Program-made: the position numbers and the translations under genes | Shown: positions 1,795-63,615 of the stretch, piece after piece | Layout: every line of letters begins with the position of its first letter | How positions within the stretch are numbered: the first letter of the stretch is position 1 | The notes under the pieces: model-generated | Database searches by the model: none | What the model saw: only the letters and a program-made list of their open reading frames with translations | Told to the model about the DNA's origin: nothing | DNA from: a virus | DNA length: 64,000 nt | Strand: one strand, 5' to 3' | IMG/VR virus record: IMGVR_UViG_3300050821_004765 | Coordinates: 1-64,000 of that record

Positions 1795-2183
1795 CGATCC
1801 ATCCCATCATCATAGTCGTGAAAATTCGGCATTGTCTCGGCGGGGTATTGACCTTCATATATGCCATCTTGCGCATACTGTTGATTCTCGTAGTCAGCGC
1901 GATGCCGATACGCTGCCATTTGGCGTTCCCATTCCAATTTAGCGCGACGATTTAATTGGGATAGGCTATATACAAAGCGAGCTATTGCAATAGCGGCCCC
2001 TACAAATGCAAACAATATATAAATGCCCATAGTTGCCTTGGGGTCTGCAATGAAACCCCCGACTGTAGCACAAATAGCAATTACAGTAATAAACGCCAAC
2101 GGGTTGCCAAAGCCGTAGTCGCCACGACCTCGACCTTCATAAGCAGTTACTATCTGTATGTTATTTCGGTTGCTCGCTTTCAT
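1785..2183 (-). CDS. two-helix membrane protein, 132 aa
   Basis: Two hydrophobic segments, around residues 28-46 (LAFITVIAICATVGGF) and 52-71 (MGIYILFAFVGAAIAIARF), are joined by a short loop. A charged C-terminal tail of about 60 residues follows, rich in Tyr, Asp and Gln. This looks like a helical hairpin inner-membrane protein with a cytoplasmic tail. It is not next to lysis genes, so calling it a holin would be a guess. It overlaps the upstream DNA-binding-like gene by 23 bases. Confidence 0.7.
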   Translation of the reverse strand: MKASNRNNIQIVTAYEGRGRGDYGFGNPLAFITVIAICATVGGFIADPKATMGIYILFAFVGAAIAIARFVYSLSQLNRRAKLEWERQMAAYRHRADYENQQYAQDGIYEGQYPAETMPNFHDYDDGMDRWQ

Positions 2184-2442
2184 CGAAAATGTATCCTTCT
2201 GCCATTGCGCCGATAATTATCAGACGGCGTACCGTCTCACTTGTGCTGCGTCCGCCATAACGTCCTGTGTATTCCTCCAAGAATCGCGCTAGCTCTAATT
2301 CCACATAAGAGCCAACTTTAATCGTACGGGCGGATTGTGGCAGCAAAGGAATCGGTAGCATTGGGTGCCCAAGGTAGGGCTGAGCCGATGCGAGTCGATC
2401 GGCCAACTTCTTTTTGAAGTCCTCGGCCGTGAAGCTTGGCAT
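2161..2442 (-). CDS. ribbon-helix-helix-like DNA-binding protein, 93 aa
   Basis: The C-terminal half fits the CopG/Arc ribbon-helix-helix pattern: a strand (TIKVGSYVELE), a helix (ARFLEEYTG), then GGRSTSETVRRLIIIGAMAEG, with the Gly-Arg-Ser/Thr turn and second helix. Such proteins dimerise and bind short operators through the strand. It is the first gene after a strong promoter, with a leader of about 40 bases and a GAGGAAA ribosome-binding site. This placement suits an autoregulator or early regulator acting on the shared promoter motif. The fold is inferred from pattern only; no similarity search was possible. Confidence 0.6.
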   Translation of the reverse strand: MPSFTAEDFKKKLADRLASAQPYLGHPMLPIPLLPQSARTIKVGSYVELELARFLEEYTGRYGGRSTSETVRRLIIIGAMAEGYIFDESEQPK

Positions 2443-2485
2443 TTTATTTCCTCTGTTTTACTTATTAGTTATTGCCACAAACTCT

Positions 2486-3244: not shown

Positions 3245-3454
3245 TTAATTGTCGGTCTTGCTTCCGTTATTTTGTTTTACATTGATGATCTTGCTGACCT
3301 TGATCTCCAGTCCAGAAAGCGCCTTTCTAGCATCAGTAAAGCTCTCGCCGACTAGAACAAACCTCTTTGTCTCAATGTAGTATACTGCCGATGCCTGGCC
3401 AAATCTATTCACGACCTTTTCACCGGCGGGGATGATATTAGGCTGTTCGTTCAT
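3245..3454 (-). CDS. hypothetical protein, 69 aa
   Basis: Not recognised. A small basic protein with alternating beta-prone segments (KVVNRFGQASAVYYIETKRFVLVG) and a Lys/Asn-rich tail. It overlaps the gene upstream by 17 bases and is co-directional with thyX. No function can be assigned. Confidence 0.6.
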   Translation of the reverse strand: MNEQPNIIPAGEKVVNRFGQASAVYYIETKRFVLVGESFTDARKALSGLEIKVSKIINVKQNNGSKTDN

Positions 3455-3632: not shown

Positions 3633-4708
3633 TGACGTGCTGCCTTCGGATCTGCAAGCCATTCGACATCATGAATGCTACAAATTTGGATGTCATCACG
3701 TTCAGTGAACGATTCGCCCCATTCACTACTGGGTCGGCCAATTTCGCTATTAGCCTGCACTCGATCTCGAATAGAGCAAAAGCGGTCGCCAGCGCTCATG
3801 AATTCGCACTTGCCGGTTTTGTAACAAATTGGCTTAAACAGGTTGGCAATTTCATCGAACTGCCACTGTGCTGGATGCATTTCTTGCCAGTATGGCATTG
3901 TTTGGTATATCTGATGCTGACCATACTCGCGAATGGCCTTGATAATCTCCACCCAAACTAGCCGCCATTCGAACTGGGCTTGAGTGCACAAACGTAGTCC
4001 TGCGTGGTCAATAAGATGGCGCAATGACGTGGTGTAGTTGAGCTGCGTGAGCACGGAAGTAGGCGCCAGTCCGCGGGCATCTTCAGCAGGCATTCCACTG
4101 TTGACGAGATTGTTATAGGCGTGCCCAATGGTTTTGACTGTTGCATCCCACTCCCGTCGCCATATCTGCTGGGGTTTCGCTTGCTCTTGCGCATACTTAT
4201 CAACTAAACGTACACGTTCATAATTTTCTGATTCATCTTGAAGTGATTGCAAATTCAAATTACCCAATCCACCAGGGAACAGCTCGCCAGCACACTTGGC
4301 AACCCAGTCTTTCCATGGTAATGTCCCTGCCAGGCTTGGCGGCAAGGCAACGGGCATGGTTTCTTTTACTGCGAATCGCATGGACTCTTGAGCATAGCAA
4401 GCTGTACGCTGACGTACCATTTGGTGGGTGAATCCCCGCGTGACTCCCGTAATACGGAAATGGAAGTGCACAAATTCCAAAGGAGCAAGCAATACGTTTT
4501 TGCGAACGTCGGCAAGGAAAAATCGTCGTTCGTCGTCTGTGATTTCAGCCAGGGACGAATGAAACCGTCCCTGATAAGTGTGGGCAGCGGCAGCAATGGT
4601 GCCCAATGGATCAGGTGTGCAGCTAAGAAGTTGGACTTTGGGGCCTTCATTGGTCTGCTCCTCAGCTGCAAACATGGCGGGGTCTACCCACTTTTGCACT
4701 TCATTCAT
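3629..4708 (-). CDS. thyX: flavin-dependent thymidylate synthase ThyX, 359 aa
   Basis: Makes dTMP from dUMP using methylene-tetrahydrofolate, FAD and NADPH, which would free the phage from host thymidylate supply. The signature is RQRTACYAQESMR, matching the ThyX pattern R-x-R-x7-S-x-R; it is preceded by HFHFRITGVTRGFTHQMV. At 359 residues it is longer than typical bacterial ThyX (about 220-250), with extra sequence at both ends, including several C-terminal Cys and Trp residues. The start is the ATG overlapping the upstream stop by eight bases (MNEVQKWVDP); an upstream ATG would give a 19-residue extension inside the neighbour. A flavoprotein and a possible nucleotide-modification gene lie 6 kb upstream. 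Confidence 0.88.
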   Translation of the reverse strand: MNEVQKWVDPAMFAAEEQTNEGPKVQLLSCTPDPLGTIAAAAHTYQGRFHSSLAEITDDERRFFLADVRKNVLLAPLEFVHFHFRITGVTRGFTHQMVRQRTACYAQESMRFAVKETMPVALPPSLAGTLPWKDWVAKCAGELFPGGLGNLNLQSLQDESENYERVRLVDKYAQEQAKPQQIWRREWDATVKTIGHAYNNLVNSGMPAEDARGLAPTSVLTQLNYTTSLRHLIDHAGLRLCTQAQFEWRLVWVEIIKAIREYGQHQIYQTMPYWQEMHPAQWQFDEIANLFKPICYKTGKCEFMSAGDRFCSIRDRVQANSEIGRPSSEWGESFTERDDIQICSIHDVEWLADPKAARQ

Positions 4709-5024: not shown

Positions 5025-5371
5025 TAGCTGCCTTCCCAGTTTCTGTCATATTTCACGTGGCAACTCCTGCATCTTGGTTCATAGCTATCCATTTCCCACT
5101 CGTCACTTTCATGGATTTGCGACCAATCATGTGCTTGATCTCCACAGTCAACACAGTCGTGCTCTTTAGCTTTGCCCTTTTGACGTTCAATTCTACTGTG
5201 AATTGATCGTTTTGATATAGATTTGCCAGCCCAGTTGTGACTTTCCTCTCCTTGTTTAGGAGCAGTATGCCTTTTGCATGTACAACCGTCTAAGCAAATA
5301 TCAAGACGCCCAATAGCATGACGACCACAGGTACAATCAGGTTCGCATTTTCTTCCGATATAATTTGCCAT
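5024..5371 (-). CDS. HNH-like zinc-binding protein, 115 aa
   Basis: Cys/His-rich along its length. The N-terminus has CEPDCTCGRH and CLDGCTCKRH. The C-terminus has CVDCGDQAHDW, a His-containing middle and PRCRSCHVKYDR. The C-terminal pattern (CxxC, then W and H, then CxxCHxxYD) is the zinc-bound core of a common actinophage HNH-like family, and the same pattern recurs in the gene at 38,169. Nuclease activity is an inference; the canonical HNH His-His-Asn triad is not obvious. Its stop overlaps the next gene as TAATG, and its own start overlaps the polymerase stop the same way. Confidence 0.6.
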   Translation of the reverse strand: MANYIGRKCEPDCTCGRHAIGRLDICLDGCTCKRHTAPKQGEESHNWAGKSISKRSIHSRIERQKGKAKEHDCVDCGDQAHDWSQIHESDEWEMDSYEPRCRSCHVKYDRNWEGS

Positions 5372-7707
5372 TAGTCAATTACCACTACATGCATAGATTT
5401 AACTTGAATACTTGTACCAAATCCTTCACGCTTTTTGCCTGCTGCAACAATTGCGTCTTTACCTATTTCAAGGTCTTCAATGGCCTGTTGAAACTTAGGA
5501 AAAGACCATCGATTAAATCTTAGGTACACTTCTTCATCAAATTCGTCACGGCATTTAATAGTTGCAGATTTAAGAAGGTGAGGGTCTTTCATTTCAGAAA
5601 GAATCTCTTCAACGCTCTTGCCACTTCTGGCGCGCTCATCTTCCACATAGTCCTTATACTCAACGGTATAGGGAATACCGGCCCAGACGACCGCGTGCTC
5701 GCCCTCCCGAGGGAGTGTATCAGACCTGTGGGTCGGCGTCGGTAGGTAGTCGGGGTTATCCTTCTTACAGGCCTTCCGCAATTCCTTCATTTTCGCCGAC
5801 ATGATATTTAGGCCAAATGGATCTGATCCTTCAGCAAAATCTCGGATCTTTTCCATGGTCTTTGGCCCAATACGCGACACATTGATTAGGTCGTCCCAGT
5901 CGGGTTCGCGATCCCAATAGCTGTTATCAAGGTAGTCCAGTATGTTATCTGCGGTTTTGTCGCCAATGCCCGGAACTTGCAAGAATCCTGCAATGATGCC
6001 GTTATCGGCAGCTTCCCAATTCTTCCCAGATAGCGTTATGCTCGGCGGGGCAATCTTAAGCCCATGCCGCATCGCATCCTTCAGCGATCTAGTGCGTTTG
6101 TATACTGTCTTGTCATCATTGCCATTGCCGGTTTTCCGTAGTGCTGCGGCATAGAATGCGGTCTGGTGATGTTGTTTTATCCACATCTGCCAAAACGCTA
6201 GCATCGAGTAGGAAATACAGTGGGCAATGTTGAATGAGTACGTTGCGGAGGTCGCCATGAAGCGCCAAATTCTGCGGGCCTGTTCCTTTGTACACCCATG
6301 CTCCTTAATCGCATTATCTTCAAATTGCTGATACATGGACTCGAACTGGGCTTCGCCAAGCTTTTGTGAAATGATCTGTCGGATAGCGTGTACTTTTGTC
6401 ATTGGGAACCCGCCAAGCTCCCGGATAATACTTAGCACTTGCTCCTGGTAAATAATCTGTCCGTAAGTGAACTCAGTATGTTTATCAACAATGGGGTGGT
6501 AATTTTCAATTGTTTTGCGCCCATGTTTAATGTCAACATATTGGGCCGCCATACCAGAGAACAACGGACCTGGCCGCGATAGCGCATTGATATCCGCCAG
6601 ATGTTGAAAGTGATCTGGGACCACGTCCCGACAAACGAGACGAGTGGCACGCCCTTCAAATTGGAAAATTCCAACAACGTCATTCTTGCGGAAGGCTGCC
6701 AAAGTACGCTTATCATCAAGCGGCACACGGTATAAGTCTTCAAGGTCCATTCCTATGATGTCGAGGGCTTGCCCGATCATGCCCATAGTTGACAACCCCA
6801 GAATATCCTGTTTCAGGAAGCCCAGACTAGCGCTATCTTTTTTGTCGTATGCAATAACTTCGGCTTGTCGACCTGCAACTTCCCGGGTGTAAACTGCACA
6901 AAAGTCTGTGATTGGTCGATTAGAAATAACAAGCCCAGCGGCGTGTACGCCCATTCCACGGTAATTGCCTTCGAGCCTAACAGCATTTGTAAGTTGTGGA
7001 TGTTTATCGAGGACCGCCATCGCCTTGGGAAACATAGCAAAGGTATCCTCAAGGCTATCATCGGCTCTTGAGTCGCCGCCAGACCGCTCGATGATGAGAT
7101 TCTTAACAACTTCGCAATCCCACTTTGGAATATGGTAGACTCGTGCCACGTCATCTATCGAGTTCTTTCCCTTGTATTTCGTGAAGTTGCCAATATGGCC
7201 AACGTTTGCCACTCCGTACCTGGAACCAGCATAAGCGAAAACTTCATGCCGCCGATCATCGGAGAAATCCAGGTCAATATCTGGTAATTCATCGCGCGTT
7301 GGATCAATGAAGCGCTCGAATAGCATATGTTCATGCTGAAGTGGGTCGACTTCAGTAATTCGTAATAGGTAACACACCAATGAAGCTGCAGCAGATCCGC
7401 GTGCTGGCCCCACCGGAATTTTATGGTCTTTTGCCCATCTGACGATGTCACTTGTGACCAAGAAGTAGTCCACAAAGCCTTTGCTGATGATAAGATTGAG
7501 TTCATGCTCAACTCTCGCAATGTAATCACCCCGCCTGGTGTGCAGAAATGTGTTGCCGGTCCGTTGTAACCGAAAGGTCCAGCCGAAATTTAGCCACTCC
7601 CGAATAAGGGCAATAGCTTCCGGTGAAGATTTATCATAGCGATCTGCGAGTACACGCCCAGATGCTTCATCGACTTTAATGCCTTGGGCTTGCTCTATGC
7701 TAGTCAT
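5371..7707 (-). CDS. dnaE: DNA polymerase III alpha, catalytic C-terminal half of split DnaE, 778 aa
   Basis: Carries the palm, fingers and C-terminal parts of a C-family replicative polymerase. KIPVGPARGSAAASL is at about residues 97-111 and the catalytic PDIDLDF at about 142-148. A helix-hairpin-helix (LQVPGIGDKTADNIL) lies near 575-590 and an OB-like C-terminal region from about 660. The PHP domain is missing: it is encoded by a separate upstream ORF, with an HNH endonuclease gene in between. The start is the ATG overlapping the HNH stop as ATGA (MTSIEQAQGIKVDEASG); longer in-frame starts would lie in the HNH gene. The two halves would have to associate after translation. Confidence 0.85.
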   Translation of the reverse strand: MTSIEQAQGIKVDEASGRVLADRYDKSSPEAIALIREWLNFGWTFRLQRTGNTFLHTRRGDYIARVEHELNLIISKGFVDYFLVTSDIVRWAKDHKIPVGPARGSAAASLVCYLLRITEVDPLQHEHMLFERFIDPTRDELPDIDLDFSDDRRHEVFAYAGSRYGVANVGHIGNFTKYKGKNSIDDVARVYHIPKWDCEVVKNLIIERSGGDSRADDSLEDTFAMFPKAMAVLDKHPQLTNAVRLEGNYRGMGVHAAGLVISNRPITDFCAVYTREVAGRQAEVIAYDKKDSASLGFLKQDILGLSTMGMIGQALDIIGMDLEDLYRVPLDDKRTLAAFRKNDVVGIFQFEGRATRLVCRDVVPDHFQHLADINALSRPGPLFSGMAAQYVDIKHGRKTIENYHPIVDKHTEFTYGQIIYQEQVLSIIRELGGFPMTKVHAIRQIISQKLGEAQFESMYQQFEDNAIKEHGCTKEQARRIWRFMATSATYSFNIAHCISYSMLAFWQMWIKQHHQTAFYAAALRKTGNGNDDKTVYKRTRSLKDAMRHGLKIAPPSITLSGKNWEAADNGIIAGFLQVPGIGDKTADNILDYLDNSYWDREPDWDDLINVSRIGPKTMEKIRDFAEGSDPFGLNIMSAKMKELRKACKKDNPDYLPTPTHRSDTLPREGEHAVVWAGIPYTVEYKDYVEDERARSGKSVEEILSEMKDPHLLKSATIKCRDEFDEEVYLRFNRWSFPKFQQAIEDLEIGKDAIVAAGKKREGFGTSIQVKSMHVVVID

Positions 7708-8192
7708 ACCCACGCCCAAGATATACCAACAATAGCTGCCCACATAGTGGCGCGGTTTACTCCAAATTCATAGGCAAGATGTGATGCAGACTCTCCATTG
7801 TTATATCTCTCTCTTGCCAATAAGACTATTTCTTTTGTTAATTTTGCATTGGGTCTATCTGATCCAAGAGGAGTTTTGCCATTCCTTTTTGCATCTTCTT
7901 GATTCTCTAATGCTGTTCCCCACATTAGATTGGATGCTGCATTATTATCTCTGTTGTCATCTATGTGACGGACTTGGAGTCCATTAGGTCGTTCACCGTG
8001 AAATGTTCTACAAATTGCAACATGTATTGGTACAGTATCTTTTACACAAGTAGTACCATCTGGTCGCAAACCTACCCACCAATATCTGGTAGCTTTATTC
8101 CATATCGGAACTAATGGCTTACCACGAACTCCAAATATAGTGCCATCTTCCATGGCCATATGGCGATATCCAGGGATCTTAACTATATCCAT
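7704..8192 (-). CDS. HNH homing endonuclease inserted in dnaE, 162 aa
   Basis: A complete NUMOD4-HNH type homing endonuclease. It has an N-terminal IPGYRHMAMEDGTIFGVRGK segment, the His-containing core HVAICRTFHG, HIDDNRDNNAASNLMWGT with the second His and the Asn residues, then ENQEDAKRNGKTPLG. A C-terminal helix-turn-helix (LTKEIVLLARERYNNG, SASHLAYEFGV) probably reads the target. Its ATG overlaps the stop of the upstream DnaE half and its TGA overlaps the ATG of the downstream half, so it fills the break exactly and leaves no room for an intron core outside the ORF. By analogy with T-even-type phages, it may cut uninterrupted dnaE alleles and spread by repair. Confidence 0.88.
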   Translation of the reverse strand: MDIVKIPGYRHMAMEDGTIFGVRGKPLVPIWNKATRYWWVGLRPDGTTCVKDTVPIHVAICRTFHGERPNGLQVRHIDDNRDNNAASNLMWGTALENQEDAKRNGKTPLGSDRPNAKLTKEIVLLARERYNNGESASHLAYEFGVNRATMWAAIVGISWAWV

Positions 8193-9103
8193 GGCACATG
8201 GTCCCTTTCGCCAATAGGATATTTGATTGTCTCAACTTGTTCTAGGTGAGCGTCACATCTGTCGGCAATACGACCAGTATTTAGTAGCGCTTCTTGTGCG
8301 CCATCTTCTGATAAGCCTGTACCAACAAGTTGCTTGTAGACTTCGTCATCGGAAGTGGGAATTGATAAGAGTATGTCATATTCCCAGCTGGCCTCAACCG
8401 CACTAACAGTAGAACCACGATGTGCAGCGTGCAATATTTTTTGCATTTCGTTGTCGGCAGGATTGACATAATGGCAGTCGCTAGTAGCAACGAGCGGAAT
8501 TCCCGTTTCAGATGCAACGATTTCGAATGCCGGGTTAAGTACGCGAGTTCTATCAAGTCCTTCAAATCTTTGGCACTCCAGATAAAATCTATCACCAAAT
8601 ATGTTCTTGTACCATTCAGCGAGGTTAATGGTATTGCGTAATTGCTTGGTGGTATATCCCCCTCGCTTCTCTCCAAGGCTTTTTCCGCCAAGGAGCGTAC
8701 ACGAGATTGCACTATCCGCGCAGCCTGATAATACGATGAGCCCATCGCTAAATTCCTCTAGTCTATGCATATGCACAGTAGGCCAACGATAAAAGTCTTT
8801 CCAGCTTTGGGTTACCAAACGATTGAGATTCCGTAAACCATCTTGATTCATTGCAATAATGGTCTGGTGAAACTTACGCGACTCTTTCGGCGGGGCAACA
8901 TAGGCCTCTACGCCAAATAATGGTTTAATGTTGTGTTTCTTACATGCTTTTTCTAATTGCACGTGGCTAGAAAGATTGCCATGCTCGGTAAGCGCCATGG
9001 CTTTCATGCCATACTCTGCACAAAATTGAACATGCTCTTCCGGTAATTGAAATCCGTCGCCGTACGAGTGGGTGCTGTGGTGGTGAAGGGACACATATTC
9101 CAT
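8183..9103 (-). CDS. dnaE: DNA polymerase III alpha, N-terminal PHP half of split DnaE, 306 aa
   Basis: Holds the PHP domain of a C-family polymerase: SLHHHSTHSYGDG at the N-terminus, MKAMALTEHGNLSSH, PLFGVEAYVAP and VATSDCHYVNP, with the metal-binding His and Asp residues apparently kept. It ends shortly after the segment that precedes the palm in whole DnaE proteins (VETIKYPIGERDHVPWI). The reading frame stops as the HNH gene begins, with a ten-base overlap. It starts one base into the stop of a small upstream gene (TAATG). It should pair with the catalytic half downstream; whether the PHP domain proofreads is unknown. Confidence 0.85.
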   Translation of the reverse strand: MEYVSLHHHSTHSYGDGFQLPEEHVQFCAEYGMKAMALTEHGNLSSHVQLEKACKKHNIKPLFGVEAYVAPPKESRKFHQTIIAMNQDGLRNLNRLVTQSWKDFYRWPTVHMHRLEEFSDGLIVLSGCADSAISCTLLGGKSLGEKRGGYTTKQLRNTINLAEWYKNIFGDRFYLECQRFEGLDRTRVLNPAFEIVASETGIPLVATSDCHYVNPADNEMQKILHAAHRGSTVSAVEASWEYDILLSIPTSDDEVYKQLVGTGLSEDGAQEALLNTGRIADRCDAHLEQVETIKYPIGERDHVPWI

Positions 9104-9302: not shown

Positions 9303-10070
9303 GTCCGACTTTCTGATCGCTAGCAATAGATGCCCGATCAAATCCATCATCACTTCTTTTGGTTGCTCAAATTTAAGTTCTTCGCCATCCCAAAGTGCAC
9401 GCTTAAGTTTCCACACTTTACGCCAGATATCTACAAACTGCCCACGCGGTCCAAGGCTCTTAACTTCATCACTAATGTCCCCGCCATAATCTTTGCACTT
9501 ACTTAGCCAAAGCTGCAATGTCTGCGGCAATACCTTGATAAGCACGTCTTCGGCAACATTATTCGGCACACCTTCAATGCGCATGTAATATGTCTTGGCG
9601 CCGATATCATATTTGTAATGTACATCTACACCATTACCGGTGATAGCAACTTCCAATGGAGGCGCCATCTTTTTACCATAGGTCATTTCTCCTGGCAATG
9701 GCGTGCTTTTGCTCACAATTTCCTCACTTGGCATCATACCCAGTTGGACTCTTCCTGCGTCGTCGCTATATTTTGCAATAGCAACTTTATCCCATCCATT
9801 TCTAAGAAATTGCGATAGAGTGCTCCATGGATCATATACTTGCAAGCTAGCTTCACGATATTCTTCATAGCAAATTTGCCCGGAACATTTATCAGGATGA
9901 TCTAGCTTTGCTTGTACCAGATCTAGTTTTGCTACGGCACGCCAACAATCTTTTTCTGTATATTCATTATCCCAACTTGGAATCACTGCCCAATCTTTTG
10001 TTGCTTTGTGATATGCACCATGACAGCGAATTGCTAGGTAATCTGGATTACCCGTGACATTCTGTTTCAT
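9300..10070 (-). CDS. possible nucleotide-modification-associated (Nmad1-like) protein, 256 aa
   Basis: The C-terminal 90 residues (LWLSKCKDYGGDI, LGPRGQFVDIWRKVWKLK, then a short linker and MMDLIGHLLLAI) resemble the Nmad1/DUF1599 pattern of an N/K-rich DYGG box, a DK/RL-like helix and a final DL-x-Y/H-x-L helix. The N-terminal part is aromatic and unrecognised. The start is the ATG overlapping the flavoprotein stop as ATGA. Its own stop lies in promoter P2. A role with base or nucleotide modification is suggested by family name and by the neighbouring flavoprotein only; confidence is modest. Confidence 0.55.
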   Translation of the reverse strand: MKQNVTGNPDYLAIRCHGAYHKATKDWAVIPSWDNEYTEKDCWRAVAKLDLVQAKLDHPDKCSGQICYEEYREASLQVYDPWSTLSQFLRNGWDKVAIAKYSDDAGRVQLGMMPSEEIVSKSTPLPGEMTYGKKMAPPLEVAITGNGVDVHYKYDIGAKTYYMRIEGVPNNVAEDVLIKVLPQTLQLWLSKCKDYGGDISDEVKSLGPRGQFVDIWRKVWKLKRALWDGEELKFEQPKEVMMDLIGHLLLAIRKSD

Positions 10071-13040: not shown

Positions 13041-13227
13041 TTGTTAGCCTTTCGTCATGTATCTCTGCTAATCGTTGCCGACCGGCACATGTAGCTTGAT
13101 ACTGGTTACCAATTCTTATCTCGTGGCCATTATCATCAATCACATATGAAGTTATTGTTTCATTTGTTAACATTTCAAACCAAGCCAAAAGTGAAATATC
13201 ATCCGATGGCTTATTGTGATAACTCAA
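13021..13227 (-). CDS. hypothetical protein, 68 aa
   Basis: Not recognised. A small protein with a TTG start overlapping the nuclease stop as TTGA, ending 20 bases inside the ATPase gene. It starts MSYHNKPSDDISLLAWFEML and is then beta-prone. Full coupling on both sides supports it as a gene; the role is unknown, perhaps an accessory to the recombination pair. Confidence 0.6.
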   Translation of the reverse strand: MSYHNKPSDDISLLAWFEMLTNETITSYVIDDNGHEIRIGNQYQATCAGRQRLAEIHDERLTSGRTSK

Positions 13228-17173: not shown

Positions 17174-17250
17174 CCGATGTAACTCCCCTTATCCTTGACC
17201 TTACCATTTGTATGTTTGCCATACTTAATGGGTTTTGCTTGCGATGGCAT
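17047..17250 (-). CDS. possible small basic protein, 67 aa, overlapping ORF
   Basis: It starts one base into the helicase stop (TAATG) with AGGAG four bases upstream, a layout used throughout this arm. The protein is basic (KPIKYGKHTNGKVKDKG, VVKVKKRQAGK). Most of it is out of frame with the 96-residue ORF. Translation signals favour both; sequence alone does not decide. Confidence 0.4.
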   Translation of the reverse strand: MPSQAKPIKYGKHTNGKVKDKGSYIGCHAATETVVKVKKRQAGKSPMIGDQNLIGQLTMMEMQSPAG

Positions 17251-53205: not shown

Positions 53206-56200
53206 TGGCTGATGAAGATCTAGGCACAGCGCATGGCCAAGTCAAGATCACCGCAGATGTCAGCGGTGCTCTTGAAGCTTCTGCTGCTATGGCGGGTCTT
53301 AATACCGAAGGCAAAACGCTCCAGGGCACACTCGGTAAAACTACCGACGAAATGTCCAGACAAGAGAAGCAGTCACAGGTTAGTGCTGCTTCACTAAGTA
53401 ATTTACAGAGTAAGCACGAAGGTTTGCGGCAACGTATGCAGGAAACTGCAGATGCTGCTGGTAAAGTCCGGCAAGCACAAGCCGATCTTGATGCAGTAAT
53501 GCTCAACGTCTCTTCAACTACAGAAGAGCAAAGGGATGCGCTTAAGAATTTAACACAAGTTAAGCGAGATGCAACAGAAGCGGAAAAAGCACAGACGCTT
53601 GCTGCAGATGCTTTCAGACGTGCCATGGATAATCACAACAATACTGTTGGCAAAAGCAGTATTGTTCAAAGAGCCTTCTCTGCAGACGCGCGTGAATCAG
53701 CACGCACTATGCGTACGTTTGGTCAATCACTTGATGAAGCTGGCGAAAAACTCCAGGAATTTGACAAGCGTAAGGATCACACTCGCGAAAATATCCGTGG
53801 CTTCCGCAGGGACTGGGAAGACATGGTTGATTCAATTGGCAAATTTGTCAAGATCAATTCGACCAAAGAAACGCTACAGGGTATTGCCGATACCATTAGC
53901 AATGTTCGTAATGCTACTTTAGGCGTTCTTGCAGGTGGCGGACTAGCCGGTGGACTAGGTTTGCTGCTTGGTGGCGGTACTGAAGGCCTAGTTGGCATGG
54001 TTGCGTCTATGACGGAGCTAGTCGGACTAGTAGGACTTCTGCCAGGTCTCCTAGCAGGAGCCGGGGCCGGTGTAGCGACCCTCGCAGTCGGGTTCCATGG
54101 AGTCGCTGAGTCTATCGGCGCCATGGGCGATCCCATGAAATTCGTAGAATCGCTACGCGAACTTGGACCTGTTACTCGGCAGGCCATGGTTGAAATCCAT
54201 AGTTTCTATGCAAGCTTCCGTGGTGCCATGGAAGAAGTGCAAGATAGTATCTTCACACCGATTTTGAATGATATCCAACCGCTAGTTATGACTTATTTGC
54301 CTATGCTTATGCATGCAGGGCAAGAAATTGGCGCCGTCTTCGGTCAAGCTGGGCATCTATTTGCAGCTTGGTTGGAAACTCCAGAGACTGTACAAACTAT
54401 TCAGCAGTTCTTGCACAATGTAGCCGGTGGTTTGCAAGCCGCACTTCCTGCAGTCCAGGCATTCTCCAATGCGTTCCTGACTATCAGTGCCGTTGGCGGG
54501 GGATTCTTTCAGCAAATTGGTGAATCAGTTGCAGCAGTCGCCAAAGAATTTAACGCTTTCATAAGTAGCGCTGCACAAAGCGGTAAACTACAAGAATTCA
54601 TTCAGTATGGTATTGATTCCTTTAAAGTCTTGATGACTAACATCAAAGATGTTAGTGAAGCACTATTCAATATATTCTCAATTGGCAATCAATATGGCGG
54701 TGGCTTCTTAGAGCTTTTCCGCAATATCGGGCAAGAGTTCCTTAATTGGACTAAGTCTATTGGCGGCCAACGAACAATCGCTGACTTCTTTCAAACAATT
54801 ACGGAAGCCGGTAAAGCACTTCACCCAATTCTTCGTGAAGTTGGCAGTGGACTGGCCACTGTTGTATCTAGCATAGTTCACCTTGGTACAGATATTGCAC
54901 CGAGTATTAATGTATTCTTCAAGGATCTAAATGATGCACTGAAGATTCTTGGTCCGGCATTGATACAATCTGCTCCGGCATTTAGCGAATTTGTTGAAGC
55001 TATGGGGCGTTTGGTATTAGGTGTAGTACAAGCACTTGGGCCGAACTTACCAACATTCCTTAAGAACTTTGCTGACGCCGCTATTAAATTAGTTGGTCCG
55101 GCCACTGAATTGGCTGGAGCGCTCGGCGAACTACTCGGCAAATTAACGCCCAAAGAAATTGAATTTATTATTGGTGCTGTAGGTGCATTTAATGCACTGG
55201 GTACAGTTATTCCAATCGTTACAGGCGCTGTTGCATTACTAGCCAATCCCGTTGGCCTAGTAGTTGCAGGTATTGCTGCCCTTACTGCTGGTCTTGTTTA
55301 CTTCTATGAAAACAATGATGGCTTTAAAGAGTGGGTGGATGATGTTAATGCTGGCATCGATGAATTACCAGATGCGCTTAGTAAAGTGCCTAGTTTCTTT
55401 GAGAGTATGTGGGATACTGTTACGAAATTGATTAAGGGTTGGTGGGGCGATGTAAGTAATTGGGGTGAAAAGCTTGCCGATGATTTTGCAGCTGGCATTC
55501 GCAGTGGTTTAACTACGGTAGAAGATGCCGTCAAGGACATGTTCGGCATACCAGTATCCCATGGCAAACCGGGCTCGCCTACTGAAGAGGGACCACTTTC
55601 AGATACTTGGTCTGATACATGGGGCGCACAATTTAGTCATGACTATGCATCCGGTATTGCATCGGGGCAAGGTGAAGTAGCGGCTGCAGCAAGTGGCGTA
55701 GCAGGTGCAGCTAAAGATCAATTTAGTACATCAGGAAATACAGTCGCTGTTGGTGGAGAGTATCATGCTGGCAGCTCTGGTTTTGACCAATGGATTAAAC
55801 GATTAACTTCAGATATGAAGGCAGTATCTAATATTGCCCATGAAGTTATCAGCACCGGTCTTGGTGCAGCAAGCGATGTGCTTAAAGGCGTAAAACTCTT
55901 TGCCGAATTGTGGAAGGGTGGCGTCAACCCATTGACTGCACCTGGCGGTTTTGACCAAGGTGATAAACCGCTAATTCCACAAGCAGCATACCAAGGTCAA
56001 TTCGATGTACCAAATGTACCAAAGGCGAGTCCATATGGACAACTAAGCGCTACGGATACCACAGTGCCTGCGACAGGCAGCGGACCGACCACGGGCACTT
56101 ATGTACCGCCCAGCGCTAAAGGACCGGCAAGCGATACGCCGCCAACAACACCAGTCGCGCCTACAGGTGGAGCAGTCGCGCCCGCTGGTGGACAAGTTGG

Positions 56201-58310
56201 ACCTACTGGATTAACTCAAGACCAATTTGCCGCAGAAGTTATCAACCAGGCAAAAGCCATGGGATTTAATGAAGAGCAAACTTTATCGGCTCTTGGTACT
56301 GGTTTACAAGAAACTGGACTGGGTACTAACCCAAGAACGAATGTACTTCAGAATCAAAATGGTACGCCAGATATTGGTGGCGCTTACCAACAAGATAGTA
56401 GTTACGACAAGTACGGAAACAAGCTAGACCCAAAGGTTGCAATTCATGGATTCCTTGACCAATTTAGAAGTCGTGGCCAAGGCTTAAATAATCCCAACCC
56501 TTGGAACCAAGCGCTTCGCGTGCAAGTCCCCGCTACTGTAGCTGGTGGCGGATATAATGATGCGCCGTCCGGCGAAATTGGCCCGGGCGATTACTTGCGA
56601 AATAGACAACGGCAAAATGCTCTAGGCATTTACAATCGATTGACAGCAGGTGGCGCTGCGCCTACGTCAGCCAATAATATACCAACTCGCAACGCATCCG
56701 ACTACGGCGGGGTAGCCCTCAATGACACAGAACACCCATTAGATCCTGGCGGTGGTGTTGCCGATAACCCCGCCAGCCAGGCAACGCGGGCGCAGCCGTT
56801 CCTTGGGGGCAGCACGGTAAGTGCTTATGACCGAGCCCGTAGTGCTGGTGCGTTTACTAGCCCACCGCTCTATGCGCCGGGGACAGACACCGGTGGCTAC
56901 GGGCACCCGGGCAAATTGCCTGCATGGATGACAGACTTGGGTAATAGGTTTGGGGTTATCCCAAGCACTTATCCTGAAGGTGGCACACTACACCAAGAGG
57001 GGTTCGCGACAGACTGGGTTGCGAAGCCCGGGGACAAAGACCCGGCTGGCACAATGGATAAGTTTGCTGACTTCATTATGAATAGCTTGATGAGTCAGAC
57101 TATGGAGCTTATCCACGCTAACTCAAAGCAAGGCAAAACTTGGGGAATATTTGCTGGCGAACCGGTTGGGCCTGGTACTAAGTACCCAGATTACAACAAA
57201 GGTGACTGGGCTGGCCACGATGACTATGGGCCAGAGCCGCACGTACACTGGGCTACGGATGTGGCGCCGCTGCTGAATGGTATGCCGCCGCAGGGCGGTT
57301 CGCCGCCTGCTGGCGGACCGGGAACTGGGCAGATGACACCATCTGGTGGCGCGTGGCTTACACCGGGCGGCAACGTAGTAACTACCAATCAGCAGACTAA
57401 TATGCCGGGTACTGGCCTGTTACCTGGTGGCGGAACGCCAGGTAATGGCTTACAGTCGGGTGGCGGTTCTTGGTTGGGTGGACAGAATAGCCAGCAACCC
57501 GGGCAAAGTGGTGGGACTTGGCTTGGTGGAATGGGCCAACAGAGCGTGCCTGGTGTCCCGCAGGCACCTACCCAAGCACCAATGTCTGGTATGCAAATTG
57601 CTACCCAGGCTATCCAGGGTGCCGGTAATATTGCGGATAGCATCTTTTCTAGTATCAACAGCGTAATTGATTCCATTGGTGCTGGTGCCGACTTAATTAA
57701 GAAAGCAGCTTTGCTACCCAAGGATACTCAGACTGTTATCAGTATGGTAAAGGATGTCCAACAATTTATTACAACTGGCGCACAGATTGCACAAACGACA
57801 TCGTCTGTCTTGGGAACGGTCAGTAGCTTTGTTGGTGCCGGTGCAAGTGCCGATCCCTCCGGCGGGGCAGCTGGAGCTGCGGCCGCTTTAGGTGCAGCCA
57901 GTAGCATTGCTGGACTTGTCGGTGACGCATTGTCAACTGTGAATATGGGTATTACTGCAGGTATTGATATTTACCAGCAAGTTACTAAATACATGGGTGA
58001 TATCGCTGGCTTTACGTTGGGTGGTAAAGCGACCGGTTGGCTTGGCGGCAATGTGAATATGTTGCTCAATACTAATAATGGATCGCTGTATACTTATAGC
58101 CAGAACGATCCACTCAATAAGAACGTATTGAACCCCGGTTTCCAGCAAGCTTATGATCACACCAATGCTCCACAGCAACTAACGCCGACGGTGGGTTCTG
58201 TAAATGTGTATGCTGGCCCGGGACAAACGACACAGCAAATGATGTCAGACACAATGTGGATGGTGGGTACTGGTGCACCTTCAGTGGTATCGGCAGCAGG
58301 TAAGACATGA
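53205..58310 (+). CDS. tape measure protein with two cell-wall-hydrolase-like domains, 1701 aa
   Basis: Sets tail length and probably enters the host with the DNA. N-terminal 200 residues are coiled coil. Residues 240-310 and others are hydrophobic, Gly/Ala-rich helices. Around 1000-1140, MGFNEEQTLSALGTGLQETG with GGAYQQDSSY resembles a lysozyme/transglycosylase-like fold. Around 1205-1355, TLHQEGFATDWVAKPGD and a later EPHVHWATDV fit a peptidase of the M15/ARB type often found in mycobacteriophage tape measures. The C-terminus is Gly/Ala-rich. Largest gene in the window. Confidence 0.88.
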   Translation: MADEDLGTAHGQVKITADVSGALEASAAMAGLNTEGKTLQGTLGKTTDEMSRQEKQSQVSAASLSNLQSKHEGLRQRMQETADAAGKVRQAQADLDAVMLNVSSTTEEQRDALKNLTQVKRDATEAEKAQTLAADAFRRAMDNHNNTVGKSSIVQRAFSADARESARTMRTFGQSLDEAGEKLQEFDKRKDHTRENIRGFRRDWEDMVDSIGKFVKINSTKETLQGIADTISNVRNATLGVLAGGGLAGGLGLLLGGGTEGLVGMVASMTELVGLVGLLPGLLAGAGAGVATLAVGFHGVAESIGAMGDPMKFVESLRELGPVTRQAMVEIHSFYASFRGAMEEVQDSIFTPILNDIQPLVMTYLPMLMHAGQEIGAVFGQAGHLFAAWLETPETVQTIQQFLHNVAGGLQAALPAVQAFSNAFLTISAVGGGFFQQIGESVAAVAKEFNAFISSAAQSGKLQEFIQYGIDSFKVLMTNIKDVSEALFNIFSIGNQYGGGFLELFRNIGQEFLNWTKSIGGQRTIADFFQTITEAGKALHPILREVGSGLATVVSSIVHLGTDIAPSINVFFKDLNDALKILGPALIQSAPAFSEFVEAMGRLVLGVVQALGPNLPTFLKNFADAAIKLVGPATELAGALGELLGKLTPKEIEFIIGAVGAFNALGTVIPIVTGAVALLANPVGLVVAGIAALTAGLVYFYENNDGFKEWVDDVNAGIDELPDALSKVPSFFESMWDTVTKLIKGWWGDVSNWGEKLADDFAAGIRSGLTTVEDAVKDMFGIPVSHGKPGSPTEEGPLSDTWSDTWGAQFSHDYASGIASGQGEVAAAASGVAGAAKDQFSTSGNTVAVGGEYHAGSSGFDQWIKRLTSDMKAVSNIAHEVISTGLGAASDVLKGVKLFAELWKGGVNPLTAPGGFDQGDKPLIPQAAYQGQFDVPNVPKASPYGQLSATDTTVPATGSGPTTGTYVPPSAKGPASDTPPTTPVAPTGGAVAPAGGQVGPTGLTQDQFAAEVINQAKAMGFNEEQTLSALGTGLQETGLGTNPRTNVLQNQNGTPDIGGAYQQDSSYDKYGNKLDPKVAIHGFLDQFRSRGQGLNNPNPWNQALRVQVPATVAGGGYNDAPSGEIGPGDYLRNRQRQNALGIYNRLTAGGAAPTSANNIPTRNASDYGGVALNDTEHPLDPGGGVADNPASQATRAQPFLGGSTVSAYDRARSAGAFTSPPLYAPGTDTGGYGHPGKLPAWMTDLGNRFGVIPSTYPEGGTLHQEGFATDWVAKPGDKDPAGTMDKFADFIMNSLMSQTMELIHANSKQGKTWGIFAGEPVGPGTKYPDYNKGDWAGHDDYGPEPHVHWATDVAPLLNGMPPQGGSPPAGGPGTGQMTPSGGAWLTPGGNVVTTNQQTNMPGTGLLPGGGTPGNGLQSGGGSWLGGQNSQQPGQSGGTWLGGMGQQSVPGVPQAPTQAPMSGMQIATQAIQGAGNIADSIFSSINSVIDSIGAGADLIKKAALLPKDTQTVISMVKDVQQFITTGAQIAQTTSSVLGTVSSFVGAGASADPSGGAAGAAAALGAASSIAGLVGDALSTVNMGITAGIDIYQQVTKYMGDIAGFTLGGKATGWLGGNVNMLLNTNNGSLYTYSQNDPLNKNVLNPGFQQAYDHTNAPQQLTPTVGSVNVYAGPGQTTQQMMSDTMWMVGTGAPSVVSAAGKT

Positions 58311-59293: not shown

Positions 59294-59294
59294 T

Positions 59295-61223
59295 ATGACT
59301 ATTCAAATTGTGCAAGAGAAAGTTATTGGGCAATCCAATAATACTGGAGCGATTAGCTTTAGTTTTGCTAGTGCGGTTACCCTTGGCAATACTGTAGTAG
59401 TTGTAGTTGCTTGTTCCAATAGCGACGCATACCCAATGGCAGCAAGCAACTGCTTCCTCGGCTACGAGCTAGTACCCGGTACATTTGCCGTTTGGGATCC
59501 GGGTAATAGTGCCGGTATCAATGAAGCTGTTGATGAAGGCATCTTTGCTACTTGCTGGGTGCTACCAAATTGCCCCGCCGGTAATGGTATCACATTGAGC
59601 ATTGCCAATATGGAATATATCAACGAGATAGTTGCCTATGAAATTAGTGGACTAGGCAACTCACCAATCGTTGACCAGTTTATTTTCAATTCTGGTGCTA
59701 CTGGCAATATTAACTCTGGTGAAACCCAAGGATCTACATTTGCACCGGAGATTGCCATTGGCGTTGGTATGGCGCTCAACGGCGGCGCACAAGCGCCGAG
59801 TGGCGACACAACTTGGACTGCAGTTGAGGCGTCTGGAGAGACGTACGCGCGAATTGGCTACACCGTAGCTACATCTACTGCGACTAAGTTCTCTTGGGTT
59901 GAGACCATTAGCAGCGGCCCTTGGGTTTCCGGTATCGTTAGCCTGTACGCTGCACCCCTAACTGGTACCGTACAGCCTGCGAGTATTCCTACTGGCGATG
60001 AAGGTAAGTTTCGTTTCATTGTGGAGGAAGCAGTAACTGGTAAGATTCTTACGCGGGATCTCAATGTCACCAAGCCTAAGCTGCTACGCGCATTAAGCGG
60101 CCCGTGTAAAATTGAGTTCGATGTTGACTACCGCGATCTATCTGCCATTGGTATTGGGTTCAATCCGTGGGGGCACTGGATTCATGTGGAAAAAGAAATC
60201 TATGGCGAACGTAAGATTTGGTGCAGTGGTATTGTACAGCCCGGTAAGGTAGACAAGAAGACCGGTGTCTTGCACCTACAAGCTCAGGGGTTCGCTGGAT
60301 ATCCAAAAGGTATTCCGTGGCTAGAGAATTGGAACCCCCTTACCGTCGACCCGTTCCAAGTTGTTCAAAAGATTTGGCATCATCTACAGAGTTATAGCAA
60401 TGGCAATCTTGGGGTAACAGTTTACCCGTCTATTGCCGGACTCGAAATGCTACCGGGTTATGCGTTCGATGGCAATATCATGAACCTGGACTTCTTTGCT
60501 GAGTATATTCGTGCAGAAGACAAGAACGACTGTGGCGATTACATCAATACTCTTGCACAAAATATTCCTTTTGACTATGTCGAATATAGTAATTGGAATG
60601 ATGACTACTCGGCAATCCAGAAGTCAATATTCCTTGGCTATCCTAAGGCTGGTGTACAGCAAGACTACTTATCATTTGTCATCAATGAAAATGTTATGGA
60701 GGCACTACCATATGTGGAAGCTCAAATTGACTGGGCTAGTGATGTTATTATTGACGGTTGGTTCCCCGGCAGTGAGTACAGCGCAACCTTCACTAATCCC
60801 CTCCCCAACAGATATCGTCGCGTGCTTACCGAAGATGAAGCTAGAATCAACAGCAACGAAATCGCAGCAGCTTGGGCTCAGCGTAAGTTGTCAAAGCGAC
60901 AAACCCCTGCCTACTGGTCCGATATTGTTACCATCTTGGGGCACCCAAATGCCCCATTTGGATCCTACGACGTAGGCGATGATATTTGGGTCACTGGCTA
61001 TATGCCATGGGTCGGTGACGTCAACCAGCTTCATAAGATCCTCGCAATTCAAGTAAATGAAGACCAAGGCACCTGTGAGTTAACGCTCATGGCTGAAGGC
61101 GCATTCAACTATGCGCCGGTATACTATCAGGGTAGCATTAGTGGTTCTACAACTATGGTTGAAAGCGCCACACCAAATGTAACTGTCGCCACTTATGCCG
61201 CACAGATTGGACCGGGCAGTTGA
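59295..61223 (+). CDS. tail-associated (Tal/minor tail) protein, 642 aa
   Basis: An N-terminal region of about 230 residues is beta-rich and may carry a carbohydrate-binding or jelly-roll domain (ISFSFASAVTLGNTVVVVVA). From about 235 to 600 it follows the Tal/gp27-like minor tail pattern (GKILTRDLNVTKPKLLRALS, LYGERKIWCSGIV-like, YNYAPVYYQGS-like end). Such proteins form the central tip. Confidence 0.72.
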   Translation: MTIQIVQEKVIGQSNNTGAISFSFASAVTLGNTVVVVVACSNSDAYPMAASNCFLGYELVPGTFAVWDPGNSAGINEAVDEGIFATCWVLPNCPAGNGITLSIANMEYINEIVAYEISGLGNSPIVDQFIFNSGATGNINSGETQGSTFAPEIAIGVGMALNGGAQAPSGDTTWTAVEASGETYARIGYTVATSTATKFSWVETISSGPWVSGIVSLYAAPLTGTVQPASIPTGDEGKFRFIVEEAVTGKILTRDLNVTKPKLLRALSGPCKIEFDVDYRDLSAIGIGFNPWGHWIHVEKEIYGERKIWCSGIVQPGKVDKKTGVLHLQAQGFAGYPKGIPWLENWNPLTVDPFQVVQKIWHHLQSYSNGNLGVTVYPSIAGLEMLPGYAFDGNIMNLDFFAEYIRAEDKNDCGDYINTLAQNIPFDYVEYSNWNDDYSAIQKSIFLGYPKAGVQQDYLSFVINENVMEALPYVEAQIDWASDVIIDGWFPGSEYSATFTNPLPNRYRRVLTEDEARINSNEIAAAWAQRKLSKRQTPAYWSDIVTILGHPNAPFGSYDVGDDIWVTGYMPWVGDVNQLHKILAIQVNEDQGTCELTLMAEGAFNYAPVYYQGSISGSTTMVESATPNVTVATYAAQIGPGS

Positions 61224-61717
61224 CCACAGGAGGCACAGGCCCAGTTATTGGGCCGAGTAACCCAATCAACAGGCCGCTTGACCTGTATGGCAAATTCTTT
61301 CAGAGCCTATTCGCTGGAGCGGTCGACTTTGTTGATGACCCAGTCTACTGCATGCTATGTACGAGTAGCTATACCCCCAACCAGGATTCACACCAATATA
61401 AATCAGATGTAACAAATGAGGTTGTTGGCAGCGGCTACTTTGAAGGTGGCCAAGCCCTCACGGGTGTTGAGGCGTTATATCAAGTCTCAGGTTCACTAAA
61501 GCAGCTTGTGGTTACGGCGGGGAACTTGGTTTGGCCCAGCGTTACCTTTTCTGCTGCTTATGCCATTTTGTACATGAACTCTGCCGTGCCGGAAACCCAA
61601 CAGCCACTGATCGGCTACATGAACTTCCAAGGTACACAGTCACCGGCTGACGAAGCCTTCTATATTAACTGGGCAAGTGCCGGGGTGTTTACACTTACCA
61701 TCCCGGTGGCGACATGA
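61220..61717 (+). CDS. hypothetical minor tail protein, 165 aa
   Basis: Not recognised beyond position. TTG start overlapping the upstream stop as TTGA. The N-terminal SNPINRPLDLYGKFFQSLFA and beta-rich body (ITFSAAYAILYMNSAVPETQ-like) suit a small adsorption-apparatus component. Confidence 0.6.
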   Translation: MTTGGTGPVIGPSNPINRPLDLYGKFFQSLFAGAVDFVDDPVYCMLCTSSYTPNQDSHQYKSDVTNEVVGSGYFEGGQALTGVEALYQVSGSLKQLVVTAGNLVWPSVTFSAAYAILYMNSAVPETQQPLIGYMNFQGTQSPADEAFYINWASAGVFTLTIPVAT

Positions 61718-63615
61718 CTGGACCGCTTTATCCTGGTGCCACAAGTTCTTCGCAGCAGACATATGCACTTAGTCAGATCGACTCAACGAAGTACCCAGAT
61801 ACCAATAAAGACTTTGAAGCGAATATGGGTCGCCTTAACACTTGGGTCGACTACATTGCTTCTTATCTGCAGACGATGCAGAAAGGTATTGACCAAGCCA
61901 ACCAGGATGCGCTCCAAAAAGTACAGAGTTTAGTATCTGGTATCGAGGAAATGTTCGCTGGTGGACAAGGCCTCTTTGGCATTGACCTTGGCAATCTACA
62001 ATATTATCTCCCCGCCATCGGTGCGCTCCTTGGATTTAATACCACAGATCCATTCCCGATCAACCTATTTGATGCAGCAGAGAACTTCTTTCTTGGTTAC
62101 ATTGTACCTTTGAGTAGTTTCGCTTCAACAATCAATGGGTTCATCACCCCCATCCTTGAAGACTTTGGTATTAATGCCAATTTCATTCAAGCAGCGCAAA
62201 ACCTTATCAACGCATTCCAGAATGTAACGAATGATGTTGAATCATTCCTGTCTAATATGTGGAATGTACTCACCGTCTTCGGCGTCACATCTGGTGGACT
62301 TAGTCCGTTCTCTGATTTGTGGCACGCGATAACAACATTGCTTGGTGGCTTCAGTCTTACCAACCTTGGTGCAATTACCAACCCGATCTTCTTGGCGCTC
62401 GCGCCTTGGGTACAAGACTTGGCCGACTTGGTCAACACTATCGGCGATGCCATTACTGCTATCGAGAACATCACCAACCCATTTGGGCAACTGCTACAGA
62501 ACTTCCTATCATTCACTAACATATTCGGTTGGCTCAATATTCCGGGTGCTAACTTTAGCAACTTTAGCGAGTGGTTCCAGATACCAGGCCTAACTGCAAT
62601 TAGCAATCTAATTGTCAATGTATCCACTGCGCTTGCCAACTTAGTAGACTTGTTATTCAATAAAATCACAGGCTCCAATGCGAGCGGTGTGTCATATGGT
62701 CTGCTTGGCGATGCCGTTAAAGGTCTGGCCGATCTTATCCAGAATGCCATGAATGGTATCGACACGATCCTGAATGTTGTAGGCAAACTATTCGGTATGG
62801 TGCAACAACTCGTTGATGACATTCTCAATATACCAATCTTCAAAGGCATAGAAGATCTACTCAACAATATTGAGGGCGCCATATCTGGTTGGTGGAACAA
62901 TATTGTTCAAAGTCTTACCGGCCAGAACCCGGGTACTGCTGCCAACACTACCCAGATCAATGCACTCTGGACCCAAGCCCTTAATGCTGGCGGGGTTAGT
63001 ATCTCCCAGAACTTTTCCTATGGTACAGCATTATCTTCAAGTTGGGGCGTCGTTGAAACGTACGCGCTCCCAACCGTTAGTGGTGCGGGCACTCAAGACT
63101 TTGTCTATGACGTCAATGGCAATATGCACTATGCAATATACAAGACGCCCTTGGCAACCCAGAATAACTATGTGTCATGTATTGTTAAGTATTTTGGCTC
63201 TAACGTTTATGGCCCGGTCCACCTAATACTTTGTGCACAATATAACACAACAACAACTACGCTTGGCGAATATGTAGTCCTTGAATTTGACCATCAGTGG
63301 TACGGTAACTTCTTGCGAATTGTGTCATACACTGGTCCTGGTACTGGTCGTGTTGTTCAAGCAACGGGTAGCCCGAGCGTTAATGTAGGTGATGTACTTG
63401 GTATTGCATATGATGAAGCAGAGAATACATTTGCAATGTTCCGCAATGAACAACAGGTAGGCCAAACCTGGACGGATACGGGTAATATTATCAACCATAG
63501 TACCGGCTACCTTTATACAGGACTTGTGACGAACGCATCTGGTTTATATTACAACGGTGCCAGCCCAGACTGGGGAACTGGTATCGGGCAGTTTGTGGCG
63601 TACGATGCCGTATAG
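61714..63615 (+). CDS. minor tail protein, 633 aa
   Basis: The first 400 residues are long amphipathic and hydrophobic helices with repeated turns (FSLTNLGAITNPIFLALAPW, WLNIPGANFSNFSEWFQIPG). The last 200 are beta-rich with a jelly-roll look (GAGTQDFVYDVNGNMHYAIY). This helix-plus-beta form is common for mycobacteriophage minor tail proteins. ATGA overlap with the gene before. Confidence 0.7.
   Translation: MTGPLYPGATSSSQQTYALSQIDSTKYPDTNKDFEANMGRLNTWVDYIASYLQTMQKGIDQANQDALQKVQSLVSGIEEMFAGGQGLFGIDLGNLQYYLPAIGALLGFNTTDPFPINLFDAAENFFLGYIVPLSSFASTINGFITPILEDFGINANFIQAAQNLINAFQNVTNDVESFLSNMWNVLTVFGVTSGGLSPFSDLWHAITTLLGGFSLTNLGAITNPIFLALAPWVQDLADLVNTIGDAITAIENITNPFGQLLQNFLSFTNIFGWLNIPGANFSNFSEWFQIPGLTAISNLIVNVSTALANLVDLLFNKITGSNASGVSYGLLGDAVKGLADLIQNAMNGIDTILNVVGKLFGMVQQLVDDILNIPIFKGIEDLLNNIEGAISGWWNNIVQSLTGQNPGTAANTTQINALWTQALNAGGVSISQNFSYGTALSSSWGVVETYALPTVSGAGTQDFVYDVNGNMHYAIYKTPLATQNNYVSCIVKYFGSNVYGPVHLILCAQYNTTTTTLGEYVVLEFDHQWYGNFLRIVSYTGPGTGRVVQATGSPSVNVGDVLGIAYDEAENTFAMFRNEQQVGQTWTDTGNIINHSTGYLYTGLVTNASGLYYNGASPDWGTGIGQFVAYDAV

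Follow-up and report, generated by a model that had tools for sequence, protein, structure and literature searches.

The primase-polymerase (PrimPol) of phage NrS-1 recognizes the template sites 5'-TTTGGTTA-3' and 5'-GTGA/GTGG-3' and initiates at the first base upstream; binding of the site is attributed to its helix-bundle domain (PMC8718748). The primase of plasmid pRN1 recognizes GTG, also through a helix-bundle domain (PMC8718748), and the GP55 primase of phage 1706 recognizes CCAAC (PMC12205980). Here we describe an 8-base word, GGCGGGGT (core GGCGGGG), that recurs on both strands of the IMG/VR virus record IMGVR_UViG_3300050821_004765. The window is the whole stretch of DNA that was analysed, 64,000 nucleotides at positions 1 to 64,000 of this 74,238-base record. 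We hold with high confidence that the word is a real, selected, phage-specific and strand-wise regular signal read by the replication or recombination machinery of the phage. We further propose, with the balance about even, that its copies may mark where the archaeo-eukaryotic-type primase of the phage (Prim-Pol plus D5/SF3 helicase) starts on the template. A search of open literature, outside which most subscription journals lay, turned up no paper on these motifs.

Enrichment of the word

GGCGGGGT is both the commonest and the most enriched of all 8-mers in the record, with 34 copies (22 on the plus strand and 12 on the minus strand) against 2.55 expected from an order-3 Markov model (z 19.7), about 13-fold over expectation. 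Its reversed control word occurs 4 times. Under the same model, the 7-mer GGCGGGG is expected 8.2 times and occurs 59 times. The core is sharp, as none of the single-base variants of GGCGGGG is enriched. The initial annotation had reported strong over-representation on both strands, and the effect proved stronger than it stated. No unrelated G+C 8-mer is equally enriched; the runners-up are overlapping shifts of the same word.

Codon usage does not reproduce the count. In 200 codon-preserving shuffles, GGCGGGGT averaged 8.3 copies (standard deviation 1.5, maximum 13), and GGCGGGG averaged 14.3 (maximum 22). These nulls are conservative, as the shuffles left untouched the 19% of the record that no called gene covers. 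Codon shuffles are noisy in high-GC phages, where many unrelated words rise too. As had been claimed, the word falls in all reading frames: 28 of the 34 copies lie inside called genes, with sense phases of 7/4/5 and antisense phases of 1/10/1, and the other 6 are non-coding. The gene calls behind the frame and shuffle tests were simple calls made for this analysis.

Variants in related and other phages

Exact GGCGGGGT is rare in the metagenome relatives G001 and G005 (3 and 5 copies, in genomes that both exceed 71 kilobases (kb)). This low count was dropped as evidence against function once the relatives' own variants were found. When k-mers were ranked genome by genome, 15 relatives had their own version among the top motifs. 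TGGCGGGT is the version of Predator (27 observed versus 1.9 expected), Oaker (26 versus 2.3), Patience (22 versus 2.3) and G001 (23 versus 3.9), and CTGGCGGG that of DrLupo (26 versus 2.1) and Onyinye (26 versus 4.8). Butterscotch (39 versus 5.7) and DumpTruck (39 versus 5.4) carry CTGGCGGA, as do Suzy and LittleFella. G005 and G011 carry GGCGGGTT, Indlulamithi carries GGCGGGGnA (40 versus 4.6) and Send513 carries GCGCGGGC (19 versus 1.6). A held-out phage of Nocardia, P3.1, which encodes Prim-Pol and a 216-amino-acid protein discussed below, then proved to have TGGCGGAG (30 versus 3.6). Conservation in relatives, which had been suggested as a check, thus took another form: the exact word is not kept, and the relatives hold their own versions.

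A second group of phages carries another word, GGTGTGGA. Curtobacterium phage Shrew has 48 copies of GGTGTGGA against 2.4 expected, and all 8 contigs picked only by a Shrew-like primase carry this word in 16-46 copies, while the reversed control occurs 2-10 times. GGTGTGG is the top enriched 7-mer in the Mycobacterium phage FF47 (39 versus 8.8) and the Gordonia phage SweatNTears (43 versus 9.6), which have unrelated capsids, different hosts and primases only 33-36% identical.

In the same k-mer ranking, no GGCGG-type word appeared in the unrelated phages D29 and Giles (both of M. smegmatis) and TM4. As controls for the method, the top words in D29 and TM4 were GGTGGCTGTCAAG-like and GGGATAGGAGC-like, which we take to be the known stoperators and start-associated sequences. 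A scan of viral contigs for paired GGCGGGGT was unspecific. A host protein is unlikely as the reader, since four different variants occur among phages isolated on M. smegmatis, namely in Butterscotch, Predator, Indlulamithi and Send513. One variant is common to phages of Gordonia, Nocardia and Mycobacterium, and the motif travels with the replication and recombination module, not with the capsid or the host. Given that relatives have versions of their own and that the motif is missing from unrelated phages of the same host, the reader is most likely phage-encoded, with a specificity that drifts among relatives.

Spacing, conservation and strand polarity

We compared the coefficient of variation (CV) of the gaps between copies with random placement and with near-miss sites on the same strand. 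In the phage of the window, GGCGGGG has a CV of 0.50 on the plus strand (37 sites, P = 0.0005) and 0.68 on the minus strand (22 sites, P = 0.045), the copies lying about 2.0 kb and 3.2-3.4 kb apart, respectively. Many other genomes behave alike, with copies regular on each strand separately and about 1.5-6 kb apart. One case is GGCGGGT on the plus strand of Predator, where gaps run from 3.0 to 6.7 kb with a CV of 0.23 (null about 0.92). The CV is 0.28 for GGCGGGG on the plus strand of Indlulamithi, 0.45 and 0.54 in Patience, and 0.45 and 0.50 in DrLupo. Across 25 genomes, 28 of 50 strand tests gave P < 0.05 against the near-miss-site null, and the Fisher combination of 5e-41 overstates independence, since the genomes are related and a few of the core words were picked after earlier results. 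Even spacing was already evident with words chosen by enrichment. When enriched words were ranked by evenness alone, the motif came first in the phage of the window, Indlulamithi, Predator, Patience, DrLupo and Shrew.

Copies are also conserved in excess. In the aligned parts of three pairs of relatives, an exact motif copy is 2-4 times as likely to be retained as a word of the same GC content: 0.50-0.59 against about 0.2 in Predator and Oaker, 0.33-0.44 against 0.12-0.17 in Suzy and LittleFella, and 0.38-0.50 against 0.10 in G001 and G005. Two further pairs were uninformative for retention, Onyinye and Leopard being too similar and Patience and DrLupo having too little aligned. In a copy-by-copy comparison of GGCGGGGT between the window and relatives, few copies could be aligned and only the one in the major capsid gene (48189-48196, plus strand) was kept; this copy is probably held by protein constraint.

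In 25 of 25 genomes, the strand in the direction of the late genes is the richer in copies (413:232 in 16 genomes and 180:135 in six contigs, plus G011, FF47 and SweatNTears). The bias is only partial, with ratios mostly between 1.1:1 and 3:1. Where the replication genes run in the opposite direction, the late-direction strand is still ahead, with counts of 15:11 in the phage of the window, 6:1 in FF47 and 9:4 in SweatNTears. Polarity therefore seems tied to the genome and not to transcription, on small numbers (30:16 in total). This persistence, the strand-wise spacing and the variants of relatives all lay beyond the reach of the initial annotation.

Gene content of motif-positive and motif-negative phages

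The relatives Hager and Wollypog, in which k-mer ranking gave no such motif, retain DnaE, an SNF2 helicase, a Cas4-like exonuclease, Sak4 and the capsid, and their primase is of the TOPRIM type. The families present in motif-positive phages and missing from these two are the Prim-Pol/D5 primase, the 216-amino-acid protein and tail proteins. We determined the primase type in all motif-positive genomes but G011, a fragment without that region. GGCGG-type genomes have a Prim-Pol (PF09250)/D5 primase, and the phage of the window encodes such an archaeo-eukaryotic enzyme (PF09250, D5_N and DUF5906). The nine genomes of the GGTGTGG group have a RepB-type archaeo-eukaryotic primase, assigned by Pfam in Shrew and by homology in the others. 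Motif type and primase type agree in the motif-positive genomes and in the TOPRIM phages Hager and Wollypog, with the Zierdtviridae exceptional.

Prim-Pol presence was ruled out as sufficient for the motif by the Zierdtviridae, whose AGCGGG-type words are explained by codons. The 216-amino-acid protein fails as a universal marker for Shrew, in which neither a homologue of it nor Prim-Pol was detected. An alignment-based search for the 216-amino-acid family was abandoned, as too little of it is conserved, and PDB sequence searches with the primase and the 216-amino-acid protein gave no credible match. Among the genes of the replication and recombination module, the primase stands out as the strongest single candidate for the reader, as judged from these gene distributions.

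Positions of the copies and genes of the window

By exact count, the window holds 29 copies of GGCGGGGT, 19 on the plus strand and 10 on the minus strand. The plus-strand copies lie at 1839-1846, 4676-4683, 10471-10478, 12027-12034, 16350-16357, 17547-17554, 22091-22098, 24391-24398, 26955-26962, 30521-30528, 34401-34408, 36110-36117, 37310-37317, 39775-39782, 45524-45531, 49775-49782, 56706-56713 and 62989-62996, together with the capsid-gene copy given above. Those on the minus strand lie at 7528-7535, 19732-19739, 21666-21673, 23269-23276, 27870-27877, 29151-29158, 30301-30308, 31113-31120, 39305-39312 and 56767-56774. Nearly all of the 28 positions listed in the initial annotation were right; it had missed the copy at 4676 and placed those at 39775 and 45524 at 39776 and 45534. 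Its statement that 9 of 11 copies in the right arm are on the sense strand stood. For GGCGGGG, it had given about 47 copies, and there are 48. Those in which the next base is not T lie on the plus strand at 867-873, 3425-3431, 6044-6050, 8889-8895, 20206-20212, 34791-34797, 41102-41108, 42393-42399, 44116-44122, 54495-54501, 57861-57867 and 61516-61522, and on the minus strand at 9479-9485, 13395-13401, 19152-19158, 47557-47563, 52306-52312, 59573-59579 and 62010-62016.

All candidate reader genes are on the minus strand. The preferred candidate is the primase-polymerase/D5-helicase, whose N-terminal part with the Prim-Pol domain (PF09250, E = 2e-12) is at 2-655; the remainder of the gene, with D5_N and DUF5906, lies outside the window at 72028-74202 of the record. 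The alternative candidate is the 216-amino-acid protein (phrog_5307, function unassigned) at 19228-19878, which adjoins the gene for an SNF2-family helicase (PF00176) at 17250-19181. The recombination module further comprises a PD-(D/E)XK (Cas4-like) exonuclease (PF12705) at 13224-14357 and a Sak4-like ATPase (PF13479, phrog_124) at 12081-13040; the helicase and the exonuclease are candidate readers if the site is Chi-like.

By sequence comparison, the record comes from an actinobacteriophage; among named phages, Mycobacterium phage Onyinye is its closest relative. Its capsid protein is 78% identical to the Onyinye homologue, and its DnaE-type polymerase is 61% identical to that of Butterscotch-type (cluster D) phages. 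Two genes (8183-9103 and 5371-7743) encode this polymerase, a split also present in Onyinye, while Butterscotch has a single gene. A contig of 6.9 kb found in a different sample (G024) shows 99% identity to the polymerase of the window and has 3 copies of GGCGGGGT. A PE-PPE domain protein (PF08237, E = 2.9e-35) at 27614-28543 suggests a Mycobacteriales-like host. Replication genes occupy the minus strand across the first 31 kb, and structural genes lie to the right on the plus strand. Since both modules are co-oriented in Onyinye, G001 and G005, the replication arm (1-32000) is inverted here; gene strand and GC skew flip along with it. The two ends of the record fall within the one primase gene, and joining them directly breaks the reading frame. 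This points to a genome that is probably circularly permuted, with the record ends not joined.

Other repeated words were seen in several of the phages compared. G001 has a second strongly enriched word, CGAATCTG (24 versus 3.2 expected). Predator and Oaker carry CGAAGAGG 16-20 times, with good conservation from one to the other (8 of 13) and a possible link to gene starts. In PeteyPab, the AT-rich word TATTTAAT is repeated 40 times against 1.2 expected, and in Giles, GCTCGAG occurs 22 times against 1.6.

Discussion

From the observed enrichment, codon independence, clade-wide variants, strand-wise spacing, polarity, excess conservation and partial match to primase type, we infer the primase as the putative reader and priming as its possible function. 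In the mechanism that we propose, the primase would bind single-stranded template at the motif and start at the pyrimidine-rich bases immediately 5' of it. Any discontinuously copied strand would then meet a start site at roughly Okazaki-fragment intervals. Selection would retain a copy where the gap would otherwise grow too long, surplus copies would decay, and drift in primase specificity would lead to the whole set of sites being rewritten. Such rewriting would explain why relatives carry GGCGGGTT, TGGCGGGT, CTGGCGGA and other versions. On each strand, the copies lie about 1.5-6 kb apart, which is close to the size of Okazaki fragments. C is enriched at positions -1 to -3, 5' of the motif (0.43-0.46 versus 0.29-0.30 at near-miss sites, pooled over 17 genomes), which would fit strands starting there with G. 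GGTGTGG includes GTGG, one of the NrS-1 PrimPol sites. The broader proposal falls a little short of even confidence: some phage genomes may hold a grid of tens of identical 7-8-base primer start sites, kept regular on each strand by selection, setting the starts of Okazaki fragments and rewritten as primase specificity changes.

Several observations weigh against primase start sites. Both strands are covered over the whole genome with no switch at an origin, a pattern that simple bidirectional replication does not predict. The Zierdtviridae P69, GuyFagieri, NadineRae and Tracker encode a Prim-Pol/D5 primase and have no clear motif, and in PeteyPab only GCGGGT is enriched (95 versus 37-45) and it is not evenly spaced. 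Spacing is not significantly even in G005, G011, Onyinye, Suzy, LittleFella and SweatNTears. The NrS-1 genome has only two copies of the 8-nucleotide site of its enzyme (PMC7102993). Motif distance correlates slightly better with the 216-amino-acid protein (Mantel r 0.52) than with the primase (0.45-0.48), and distance correlations leave the candidates unseparated. Finally, recombination genes (SNF2, exonuclease and Sak4) accompany the primase in nearly all motif-positive genomes, the Shrew group included.

The last point leads to the main rival, a phage-specific Chi-like site, which we consider unlikely, if the strongest of the alternatives. Here, the word would act as an orientation-dependent signal once DNA is resected from a double-strand end. 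The SNF2 helicase, the Cas4-like exonuclease, Sak4 and possibly the 216-amino-acid protein would read it, and the signal would stop degradation and start recombination-dependent replication. An asymmetric G-rich octamer is the form of known Chi sites, and the polarity in the late or packaging direction, which holds in all 25 genomes and also against gene direction, is explained at least as well by such a site; the strand ratio of Chi in phage P1 is similar (31:19). However, Hager and Wollypog hold homologues of SNF2, exonuclease and Sak4 and lack the motif, the Zierdtviridae hold the same genes without it, and P1 Chi sites are clustered (CV 1.25 and 1.35). A Chi site of a host enzyme would be expected to be the same word across the phages of one host, yet M. 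smegmatis phages differ in the motif or lack it. A putative primase start site is the better fit to the distribution of genes.

We find it doubtful, more so than a Chi-like site, that the word is a double- or single-strand binding site of the 216-amino-acid protein, for instance for helicase loading or genome organization together with the neighbouring SNF2. This protein is present in all complete genomes with a GGCGG-type motif, the held-out P3.1 included, and it is absent from Hager and Wollypog; the Zierdtviridae have at most its C-terminal part, and only some of them have that. It also gives the highest Mantel r. However, Shrew, whose motif is equally strong and evenly spaced, has no detected homologue, and no known DNA-binding domain was found in the protein.

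A host-determined site, whether a host Chi-like site, a polarity signal or a means of evading defence, is very improbable. It would suit a G-rich octamer on both strands of phages whose named hosts are all actinobacteria. The four variants among M. smegmatis phages, the lack of the motif in D29, Giles and TM4, and the variant common to Gordonia, Nocardia and Mycobacterium phages speak against it, with the caveat that the hosts used for isolation need not be the natural ones. No support emerged for a modification or restriction site: GGCGGGGT lacks symmetry, favours one strand and recurs at even intervals. Two genes match PHROGs that carry a methyltransferase label. Among the roles offered in the initial annotation, a site for a phage protein is thus well supported, a site for a host protein is disfavoured, and the Chi-like role stands as the chief competitor. 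Codon usage would account for some of the copies (8.3 of 34). Chance, codon usage or composition can nevertheless be set aside for the window, since codon shuffles never exceeded 13 and the relatives' variants, even spacing and excess conservation speak against them.

Regular strand-specific spacing of a short, drifting word is an unusual signature of whole-genome selection. If the copies are primase start sites, genome sequence alone would give both the recognition sequence of a primase and the positions of strand starts, and an enzyme and tens of its sites could be observed changing together. If they are Chi-like instead, these phages would own their Chi systems. Under either reading, testing for enrichment plus even spacing yields candidate sites for phages without experimental work.

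Known repeated signals resemble the motif in part. KOPS-type bacterial polarity sequences are G-rich octamers with strand polarity, whereas polarity here is only partial and does not switch at an origin. The stoperators of cluster A and the start-associated sequences of cluster K are likewise phage-specific, repeated short motifs, but they are longer and regulatory, while most of the copies described here fall within genes, in every frame and on either strand. Chi of E. coli (GCTGGTGG), as it occurs in P1, shares a G-rich, asymmetric, over-represented and strand-biased octamer with our phages. It differs in being clustered rather than evenly spaced, and our motif tracks phage lineage, not host, and is absent where the recombination genes stay but the primase differs. 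The sites of NrS-1 PrimPol, pRN1 and 1706 GP55 are alike in being short, asymmetric template words read by archaeo-eukaryotic primases of phages or plasmids, for which a length of 8 nucleotides is possible, and NrS-1 is further alike in initiating upstream (5'), just beside the site, as proposed here. The known PrimPols are only domain-level relatives of the primases in these phages. Where the NrS-1 genome has two copies, these genomes have tens, regularly spaced with a strand bias, and the word itself changes from one relative to another.

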